This document shows, one piece after another, positions 9,230 through 11,352 of a stretch of 64,000 nt of DNA (position 1 is its first letter; every line of letters begins with the position of its first letter). The DNA is from Buchnera aphidicola (Aphis gossypii). Its GTDB lineage: Bacteria > Pseudomonadota > Gammaproteobacteria > Enterobacterales > Enterobacteriaceae. Under the pieces are notes generated by a model, which did not search any database, had not been told where the DNA came from, and was given only the letters and a program-made list of their open reading frames with translations. The stretch covers positions 1-64,000 of the forward strand of contig NZ_CP056771.1 of NCBI RefSeq assembly GCF_013394915.1. The letters run 5' to 3'. The translations under genes were made by a program, and so were the position numbers.

Positions 9230-10108
9230 ATGATTTTTTATTGTTCTTACAAATGGATAATTTTAGCTTTTTTATTAATTATTTTTCAAACAAAATTCAA
9301 AAAAAATATTGAAAAAAAAAACATTAATAAAATAATATTTGTAAAAAAAATAAATCATTATCAAAAAAAAAAAAATATTAGCGAACAAAAGAAAATTATT
9401 ATATTAATAGATCCAGGACATGGCGGGCAGGATCCAGGATCAATTGGGCACAAGGGTTTAAAAGAAAAAGAAGTTACCTTAAAAATTGCTATTAAACTAA
9501 AAAAATTATTAGACAGTAATACATTGTTTCAAGCTGTCTTAACTCGTAATAACGATTCTTATTTGTCTTTAAAAAAACGAAAAAATTTTTTAAAATGTCG
9601 AGAAGTAAGTTTGCTATTATCTATTCATGCAGATTCTGCGCAACAAACATACGTATCAGGAACATCTATTTGGATCGTATCAAATAATCGAATACATCGT
9701 GAAATTAATAATTTTATAAATAATAAAGAAGAAAAAATTTATTTTTCTAAAAATATTGAAGATACCTTTAAGAATAACGAAAATGATATATATTTGAAAA
9801 AAACTATTCTTGATTTACAATTTCACAGTTTTCAATCTATAGGTATGGATTTATCAAAATATATATTTCAAGAATTTAAAAAAATCACAAAAGTAAAAAA
9901 AATACAACCAAATTATGCTAGTTTAGGGATATTAAGTTCTATAAATACACCATCTATTTTAATTGAAACTGGATTTATTACCAATTTCGAAGAAGAAAGA
10001 AAATTAAAAACAATTTCCTATCAAAAAAAAGTGGCTAATGCTATTTATATTTCATTAAAAAATTATTTCCAAAACAAATCTATACCCAATTTTAAAAATA
10101 TTAATTGA
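9230..10108 (+). CDS. amiB: N-acetylmuramoyl-L-alanine amidase (AmiB type, no AMIN domain)
   Basis: Zinc amidase that cuts the bond between N-acetylmuramic acid and the peptide stem, splitting septal peptidoglycan during cell separation. The Amidase_3 domain occupies about residues 55-285. Zinc and catalytic residues are visible: H64 in DPGHGGQDPGS, E79 in GLKEKEV, H133 in SIHAD and the Glu of LIETGFITN. The N-terminus has a hydrophobic segment (WIILAFLLIIFQ), a signal or anchor. At 292 residues it is about 150 shorter than E. coli AmiB. The missing part is the N-terminal AMIN domain that targets the septum; only a Lys/Asn-rich linker remains. AAGGAA precedes the ATG. In E. coli amiB lies beside mutL and miaA. 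Confidence 0.9.
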   Translation: MIFYCSYKWIILAFLLIIFQTKFKKNIEKKNINKIIFVKKINHYQKKKNISEQKKIIILIDPGHGGQDPGSIGHKGLKEKEVTLKIAIKLKKLLDSNTLFQAVLTRNNDSYLSLKKRKNFLKCREVSLLLSIHADSAQQTYVSGTSIWIVSNNRIHREINNFINNKEEKIYFSKNIEDTFKNNENDIYLKKTILDLQFHSFQSIGMDLSKYIFQEFKKITKVKKIQPNYASLGILSSINTPSILIETGFITNFEEERKLKTISYQKKVANAIYISLKNYFQNKSIPNFKNIN

Positions 10109-10203: not shown

Positions 10204-10422
10204 TTATATCGTTTTTGATTTGGTCATTTTAAAACGTTTTTTAAATCTTTCAACACGTCCTCCAGTATCAATAATTCTTTGTTTTCCAGTATAAAATGGA
10301 TGACATTTAGAACATATATCTAAATTTATATTATGATTAATAGTTGAAAAAATTTCAATTATATTTCCACATGAACAAGTAGCTTGTATCTGAGAATAAT
10401 AAGGATGTATTTTTTCTCTCAT
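10204..10422 (-). CDS. rpmE: 50S ribosomal protein L31
   Basis: Zinc-binding type L31, a loosely attached protein at the bridge between ribosomal subunits. The four zinc cysteines are kept in CSCGN (residues 16 and 18) and CSKC (37 and 40), and the core [10 protein letters not shown] is identical in type to E. coli. The start is the ATG at 10422 (MREKIHPYY), preceded by AGGAG at 8 bases. The frame stays open 45 bases further upstream but that part has no counterpart in L31. The product has 72 residues (E. coli 70). It converges on amiB. Confidence 0.97.
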
Positions 10423-10508
10423 AGAAGTGCTCCTAAAATTATTAAAAATATTTATTCTATTATACAATCATTATTAAATTAATTATCAATTTTCAGAAAA
10501 AATAAAAA

Positions 10509-10755
10509 ATGTATCAAAATCAAAATAAAATTAGTTCAATGTATTTTAAAAAAAAAAAAATTTAAATTTAAAAAATATAATTTATTTACTATCTTACTAG
10601 TAATAATTATTTTTTTAATTTTTTTTAATGTGTTTTCAAAGAAAAAAAATGATATACAAAAAAAAATATGCACTCAAAAAAAAGAAGATGAAAACACACT
10701 ACCTGCTAAACCAAAAGAAAGATGGAAATATATTAAGAAATTAGAAAATTTATAA
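10509..10755 (+). pseudogene. ftsN: Minimal FtsN remnant, frameshifted at an A13 tract
   Basis: In E. coli ftsN lies directly before hslV, and this small element sits in that place. From the ATG at 10509 the frame reads MYQNQNKISSMYF and runs into thirteen A at 10548-10560. The next frame (no ATG of its own) then gives a membrane segment (LFTILLVIIIFLIFFNVF), a charged stretch and LPAKPKERWKYIKKLENL before TAA at 10753. The last part matches E. coli FtsN 75-91 (LPPKPEERWRYIKELES). It keeps W83, Y85 and L89, which are known as critical for FtsN to activate septal synthesis. One A fewer in the mRNA joins both frames into 81 residues. The long linker and SPOR domain are gone. Functional gene or dying remnant is undecided. 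Confidence 0.75.
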
Positions 10756-10821: not shown

Positions 10822-11352
10822 GTGACCACAATATTAAGTGTAAGATTAAAAAATAAAGTAGTAATCGGAGGTGATGGACAAGCAACTTTAGGCAATACTA
10901 TTATGAAAAGTAATGTCAAAAAAATTAAAACTCTATATCATGATAAAGTAATTGCTGGTTTTGCAGGAGGTACAGCAGACGCTTTTACTTTGTTCGATAT
11001 GTTTGAAAAAAAATTATCTATGTATCAAGGTCAATTACAGAGATCAGCAATTGAGTTAGCAAGGGATTGGAGATCTGATAAAATGCTTAGAAAATTAGAA
11101 GCATTATTAGCCGTAGCTGATAAAAATAGTTCGTTAATTATTACTGGAAATGGAGATGTAATACAACCTGAAGATGATTTAATTGCGATTGGATCAGGAG
11201 GGTATTATGCTCAATCAGCTGCTCGCGCATTGATAGAAAACACTAGTCTTAATGCTAAAAAAATTGTAGAAAAGTCACTAAAAATTGCCGCAAATATTTG
11301 CATATATACAAATCACATTTTTACTATAAAAGAATTACTTTCAGAAAAATAA
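10822..11352 (+). CDS. hslV: ATP-dependent protease peptidase subunit HslV
   Basis: Proteolytic core of the HslUV (ClpQY) protease, a double hexamer that degrades unfolded and regulatory proteins. The start is a GTG with AAGAGG upstream. After removal of Met the mature enzyme begins with the catalytic threonine (MTTILSV). The motif [26 protein letters not shown] and [18 protein letters not shown] match E. coli HslV, and the length is the same (176). hslU follows after 9 bases in one operon, ended by the terminator at 12702. I see no convincing sigma-32 promoter just before it, unlike ibpA and groES. Confidence 0.98.

Follow-up and report, generated by a model that had tools for sequence, protein, structure and literature searches.

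Introduction

The closest known counterpart of the locus presented here is FtsN of E. coli (319 residues; NCBIfam NF008179 / TIGR02223), with which it shares the position before hslV, the strand, the topology and the E segment residues W83, Y85 and L89. According to a review, these three residues are the only critical ones in the periplasmic part of the E. coli protein (PMC4632607), and residues 75–93 have been reported to be both essential and sufficient (PMC7939390). A minimal E. coli FtsN made experimentally from this region (PMC7939390, PMC9525312) contains about the same periplasmic part as has been kept naturally in Buchnera, although it is an engineered construct, which has been reported to be sufficient on overexpression (PMC9525312). 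A shrunken FtsN is already known from Serratia symbiotica SCc and STs, also an aphid symbiont, in which the non-essential FtsN domains were naturally lost (PMC5013485), and a similar truncation is seen here in several reduced genomes. The S. symbiotica authors regard most such diminutions as common in small genomes. Theirs is another lineage, for which a poly(A) frame break is not described in the ftsN passages of that paper; Buchnera is unnamed in the same passages and may figure in the supplement.

In a 2023 review, ftsN is tabulated as present in 0% of 38 + 15 Buchnera genomes, and its conclusion is that the organisms covered developed other ways of activating septal wall synthesis (PMC10591338). 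The accessible part of a further paper likewise shows no ftsN for Buchnera (PMC9116674). In the passages considered from open papers naming both ftsN and Buchnera, no report of the protein in this genus was found.

Tamas et al. reportedly showed in 2008 that symbiont genes frameshifted at poly(A) tracts are corrected by transcriptional slippage. Slippage-corrected genes of this kind share with the locus described below a poly(A) indel within an otherwise conserved frame (PMC3164680, PMC3017870). The differences are that the Buchnera gene, hereafter mini-FtsN, is known here from DNA alone and that its tract lies in a tail which flips frame among relatives.

An FtsN homologue between rpmE and hslV

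The window is the whole stretch of DNA that was analysed, namely the first 64,000 nucleotides of the forward strand of contig NZ_CP056771.1 from Buchnera aphidicola (Aphis gossypii); the source assembly (GCF_013394915.1) consists of a single 628,098-base contig. Between rpmE (ribosomal protein L31, named and given its start by reading; 10204..10422, reverse strand) and hslV (10822..11352, forward strand, the right neighbour as in E. coli), two overlapping frames were found on the forward strand. The first starts with ATG and ends in a stop (10509..10565); it reads as the cytoplasmic tail, MYQNQNKISSMYFKKKKI. It meets the second at an exact run of 13 A (10548..10560, forward strand), the length and frame of which differ among relatives. 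The second, conserved frame (P0001, 10555..10755, forward strand) reads KKFKFKKYNLFTILLVIIIFLIFFNVFSKKKNDIQKKICTQKKEDENTLPAKPKERWKYIKKLENL and comprises the end of the tail, a membrane helix, a linker, the E segment and a stop. Upstream it is open to approximately position 10483 and contains no ATG; the first start listed for it is the GTG at position 10630, by the distal end of the helix. The helix itself, YNLFTILLVIIIFLIFFNVF, was delimited by eye from the sequence (10576..10635, forward strand, approximate limits), and a hydrophobic stretch is found there in all 31 rows of the genus alignment. The E segment, LPAKPKERWKYIKKLENL (10699..10752, forward strand), corresponds to E. coli FtsN 75–92, with W at 10723, Y at 10729 and L at 10741. 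It is followed directly by the stop codon (10753..10755, forward strand), after which no SPOR domain follows. A promoter scan was uninformative (5 sites against 4.7 expected).

The initial annotation had proposed that the two frames, joined over the A13 tract, encode a membrane helix and an E segment, and that the spacer is the place of E. coli ftsN. Reading of positions 10509–10755 bears out the former, and the latter agrees with the gene order in one E. coli record, rpmE (reverse strand), priA, cytR, ftsN, hslV, hslU. As expected of ftsN, the gene lies to the right of rpmE and upstream of hslV, on the same strand as the latter; the FtsN topology, a cytoplasmic tail at the N-terminus followed by a single membrane helix, is present as judged by eye, here across the A13 frame break.

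The conserved frame aligns collinearly with E. coli FtsN (BLASTP E-value 1e-9, 20 of 52 positions identical). When it was compared with 18950 NCBIfam models, the two best were those for FtsN (PRK10927, E-value 2.1e-6, and TIGR02223, 8.6e-5), unrelated models starting behind both at 7e-4. The scores are far below the curated cut-offs for full-length proteins (27.5 bits for a cut-off of 525, and 22.2 for one of 107.65), which indicates a homologous fragment rather than a full-length member of the family. On sequence grounds, the rpmE–hslV reading is thus an FtsN homologue. In sequence searches of the PDB, the 81-residue joined reading retrieved no FtsN chain, and the full E. coli protein retrieved a single FtsN entry, the SPOR domain (1uta). 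Compared with the E. coli protein, the Buchnera copy stops at the position corresponding to residue 92, without the linker or the SPOR domain that follow in E. coli. The tail also differs. The RDY motif, which is the contact of FtsN with FtsA, is gone, Buchnera tails resembling MYxNxNKINSMYF where E. coli has VAQRDYV, and the A-rich frame of the tail is broken in many of the genomes considered.

Conservation across the genus

The genus sample consisted of 36 genomes, in 35 of which hslV was found. The rpmE–hslV place was readable in 34, leaving out G029 (unreadable there) and G003 (partly unreadable). Immediately ahead of hslV, 31 of these 34 genomes encode the helix and the E segment, which G018, G004 and G024 lack. 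The only invariant columns in the 31-row alignment are the W, Y and L equivalent to E. coli W83, Y85 and L89, together with the last L, and all 31 copies terminate three residues past L89. No match to the SPOR domain (PF05036) was obtained in any of the 36 genomes at E-values up to 0.01, while 7 of 14 controls, E. coli included, did match.

Several earlier proposals can be judged from these data. The orthologous spacers do keep the helix and the W/Y/L motif. The retention of W83, Y85 and L89 in a segment aligned with E. coli residues of about 75–90, first noticed in the window alone, extends to every one of the 31 copies, and the description of the protein as an FtsN cut to its anchor and E segment, without linker or SPOR domain, holds equally for all of them. 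With the BLASTP and NCBIfam results, the motif in 31 of 34 readable genomes also upholds the view that the likeness to FtsN is beyond chance.

Two further observations concern this region. In G018 (L032/L095), the spacer before hslV gives a reading of the form MYNN..INLIYF with two stops which resembles a decayed tail, and suggests that the gene was lost there. An AmiB-like amidase is retained at 9230–10108 of the window, though the SPOR domain, a binder of denuded glycan, is unmatched in the genus.

Purifying selection on the helix and E segment

Omega was estimated with a codon model on the hslV tree and tested against 1. For the helix and E segment together, the values were 0.24 for a set of 8 close genomes (p 1e-9), 0.41 in the 13 genomes with an intact frame (p 3e-8) and 0.32 in the 17 frame-shifted ones (p 2e-15), the branches of the last set possibly including times at which the frame was intact. 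In two clades consisting entirely of shifted members, it was 0.30 (5 genomes, p 4e-6) and 0.28 (3 genomes, p 8e-4), though some stretches of their branches may be older than the shift. Over all 31 genomes, the E segment gave 0.33 and the helix with linker 0.51 (both p < 2e-6). Selection on the helix–E part, for which the initial annotation had called for a test, was therefore detectable in each of the three main sets (0.24–0.41), with every value far from 1. The corresponding value for hslV in the 17 frame-shifted genomes is 0.033, and a codon run without the transition parameter on 9 close genomes gave 0.19 for mini-FtsN and 0.03 for hslV. The constraint on mini-FtsN is thus real but moderate, being far from neutral and yet much weaker than on hslV. 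The raw counts are unimpressive: between the window genome and L002 there are 5 synonymous and 14 nonsynonymous codons, that is, many amino-acid changes.

The ATG frame of the tail was examined over its first 13 codons in the 22 of 30 genomes in which it can be aligned without gaps, the other 8 tails being left out since gaps were needed. Omega was 0.30 (p 5e-4) for this set; in the 11 shifted genomes among the 22 it was 0.40, which is not significant (p 0.06). Purifying selection on the helix and E segment leads us to regard the gene as a retained, minimal FtsN.

Reading-frame state of the A-rich tail

The state of the tail could be scored in 30 of the 31 genomes, the tail of L023 not being recognisable. 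An ordinary ATG-to-stop open reading frame of 79–84 residues is present in 13 of them, while in 17, the window genome included, indels in the A-rich tail interrupt the frame. The initial annotation had described the conserved frame as lacking an ATG, which is correct for the window genome and 16 others and does not apply to the 13 intact ones. Nine of the broken copies carry a surplus base, 6 are a base short and 2 are broken twice. The break is confined to the A-rich stretch and the frame is conserved elsewhere, as in genes rescued by slippage. Among genomes with A runs of 9–11, the tail is broken in 6 of 13 and the helix–E part in 0 of 13 (Fisher p 0.015), although the latter figure holds partly by construction, since the gene was recognised through an open frame around W-x-Y.

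We consider it probable that the gene is a retained minimal FtsN, the E segment of which switches on FtsWI, and that the copy in the window is made via slippage on the A13 tract. In such a protein, the short basic tail and the single helix would serve as an anchor in the inner membrane, with the 18-residue E segment on the periplasmic side. There it may turn on the FtsL/FtsB-FtsW-FtsI septal wall synthase, as is established for E. coli and proposed here by homology. RNA polymerase would slip on the A tract, so that a share of the mRNAs joins the tail to the helix–E frame; the initial annotation had likewise proposed that one A is lost in the mRNA, which may be the case. We infer in this way that mini-FtsN is expressed, that slippage takes place, and that the product contacts FtsWI and FtsL. 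For the frame-shifted copies, RNA polymerase slippage is our best guess, as both directions of shift occur and the rescue of genes by slippage has been reported in Buchnera and Blochmannia (PMC3164680, PMC3017870). It would serve both directions, which a –1 ribosomal shift alone cannot do, given that 9 genomes need one base less and 6 one more. Against slippage counts a transcriptome-wide study in which no frame-restoring transcription error was observed for Buchnera (PMC5574713).

Slippage is one of several possible routes, and the best of them. The helix–E protein could instead be produced by ribosomal frameshifting on the tract or from a non-AUG start after it, which would fit a helix–E part that keeps its frame though the tail does not. 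Poly(A) is, moreover, a slippery site for ribosomes. We give this route a minor but not negligible chance, since the opposite needs of the 9 and the 6 genomes mean that no single shift serves all of them, the codon at the end of the tract shows no conservation as an initiation codon (the window genome has TTT there, and L002–L009 have ATT or ATC), and the ATG frame of the tail is itself conserved, with the omega of 0.30 given above.

The frame-shifted copies, that of the window included, might on the other hand be young pseudogenes generated by a poly(A) indel, mini-FtsN being used only by the in-frame relatives. A broken frame, a conserved frame without ATG and the existence of two genomes with FtsW and FtsI that lack mini-FtsN all point in this direction. 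Decay of this kind would however have to be reconciled with shifted frames in 17 of the 30 genomes, with two clades shifted in every member in which the helix–E frame is without a stop and omega is near 0.3, and with W, Y and L kept in all 17. Mapped onto the hslV-region tree, the frame state also shows a minimum of 8 changes, so that frame flips must be frequent. Taken together, this makes pseudogenes an unlikely explanation.

Slightly less likely still is that the A13 run represents a miscount in sequencing or assembly, or a mixed population, with the true gene in frame. Long homopolymers are error-prone and the longest A run in the tails of the 30 genomes varies between 8 and 19, but errors would be needed in up to 17 of them, and the tail is also broken in L010, L014 and L016, whose longest run has just 9 bases.

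Divisome partners and PBP1b

The proposed targets of a retained minimal FtsN are widely present. Matches to FtsW (with internal stops in G005), to an FtsI-type transpeptidase and to FtsL were each obtained in 35 of the 36 genomes. The FtsB family was matched in 34 of 36, 8 of these falling below the cut-off and that of G024, inside a 559-residue frame, being doubtful. G024 is without FtsW, the transpeptidase and FtsL, and also without mini-FtsN. G018 and G004 retain FtsW and FtsI without mini-FtsN, which shows that the latter is not indispensable everywhere; the FtsL of G018 has WRELM in place of a WRNLI segment, while G004 has no FtsB match and an FtsL without that segment. In G016, the FtsB match was missed, and mini-FtsN and the FtsL segment are kept. 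With so few losses, the pattern of co-loss is only suggestive.

The E segment could also have been retained for the regulation of PBP1b and not for FtsWI/FtsL. This possibility is grounded in in vitro and crystal evidence from E. coli; in vitro, the E peptide bound PBP1b and did not bind FtsW-PBP3 or FtsBLQ (PMC7939390). A PBP1b transpeptidase match is however missing in 11 genomes, of which all but G024 keep mini-FtsN, the window genome among them, and in these ten mini-FtsN has an omega of 0.38 (p 2e-7). An unbroken GT51 domain is likewise missing in 9 of the ten (it is present in G012), with GT51 remnants left in 5 of the 9, so that some of the PBP1b losses may be recent. Conversely, G004 has a 763-residue PBP1b frame and no mini-FtsN. 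Unless the losses are all recent, the ten genomes favour FtsWI/FtsL over PBP1b as the selected partner, and we regard PBP1b regulation as improbable. In the window genome, PBP1b resembles a decayed remnant (contig 1, 253.2–253.7 kb), with a broken GT51 and no transpeptidase match. A conserved RNA or regulatory element instead of a protein, which the spacer position upstream of hslV and the conserved elements reported in many Buchnera spacers (PMC3164680) might bring to mind, is hardly credible given the codon-model selection, the protein-level likeness to E. coli FtsN and the Rfam search of the mini-FtsN region, which gave no match up to an E-value of 1.

A parallel in FtsL

The FtsL segment WRNLIIEKN also lies past an A tract. 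Among 34 genomes it is in frame in 15, out of frame in 18 and missing in 1; this set leaves out G029 as well as G024, which has no ftsL, and includes G005 and G032 as classed by eye. In the window genome (L093, contig 1, about 283.3 kb), ftsL is broken at an A12 run just ahead of the segment. In E. coli, the E88K change in FtsL is said to lessen the dependence on FtsN (PMC7733951). Position 88 is a lysine in all 33 Buchnera genomes with the segment (L093, L096–L128; numbering of 8hhf_L). Of 27 relatives searched, 15 could be read at this position, and 14 of them have a glutamate. As AT-biased mutation also favours the change from GAA to AAA, K88 may be an adaptation, as a possibility among others.

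A more far-reaching reading can be put forward tentatively, and we hold it to be rather doubtful as a whole. The switch for septal activation in Buchnera would consist of a roughly 80-residue FtsN together with an FtsL that has its activating WRNLI segment past a poly(A) break. Both would be set by slippage, be produced at part of the level of their mRNAs and work in a system eased by FtsL K88, and the partner of the E segment would be FtsWI/FtsL and neither PBP1b nor the targets of SPOR. If this were true, the natural series of deletions among symbionts would tell which partner of the E segment matters.

FtsN in other reduced genomes

A profile built from the Buchnera copies gave a match at E-values up to 0.01 in 309 of 392 genomes of the family, a number that is too high by at least 8 owing to chance hits in small genomes. 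Nine weak matches (L078, L081–L088), out of 22 match rows that were read, are not FtsN, and eight of the genomes concerned have no other match. One of the 4 loci from a contig-wide scan (L092, from Acidobacteriia) was judged to be a chance or contaminating match. The 26 best-match loci outside the genus (L041–L066) all read as FtsN, 23 of them with hslV in the fetched stretch; their frames are mostly of 250–350 residues and are shorter in reduced genomes. The open reading frame stops no more than 4 residues from L89 in G073, G289, G184, G123, G292 and G358, and no more than 25 from it in G135, G316, G053, G150, G195, G215 and Pantoea carbekii. Both lengths can be found within one genus (g48), where G215 has a short copy (116-residue frame, genome of 0.9 Mb) and G360 a longer one (249-residue frame, 3.6 Mb). 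If copies with up to 31 residues past L89 are scored as short, this state requires at least 5 changes on a 39-row tree of HslV, a rough count because support varies over the tree and AT-rich sequences may be drawn together. The tree covers 39 of 44 loci, the other 5 being without HslV in the fetched stretch, and 5 of its rows are from the genus of the window.

Unlike the copies in that genus, L073 and L080 (g45) carry an ATG-to-stop mini-FtsN with a KDF tail motif, and KDY or KDF is kept in some other reduced genomes. In P. carbekii (L091, 1381–1734), a 118-residue FtsN frame was observed in which the W-Y-L segment is still readable; ftsN of this species has been termed degraded in a review (PMC5091035).

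Significance for Buchnera and other symbionts

Set against the 0% tabulated for ftsN in Buchnera (PMC10591338), the FtsN trigger is retained in 31 of the 34 genomes readable at this place, cut to the part that is essential in E. coli. This suggests that surveys of reduced genomes miss genes of the essential core which have no ATG or no full-length match. The symbionts thereby offer a natural experiment on the minimal requirements of FtsN and on whether PBP1b is a required target, as well as on how cells survive with division genes that flicker in and out of frame at poly(A) tracts.
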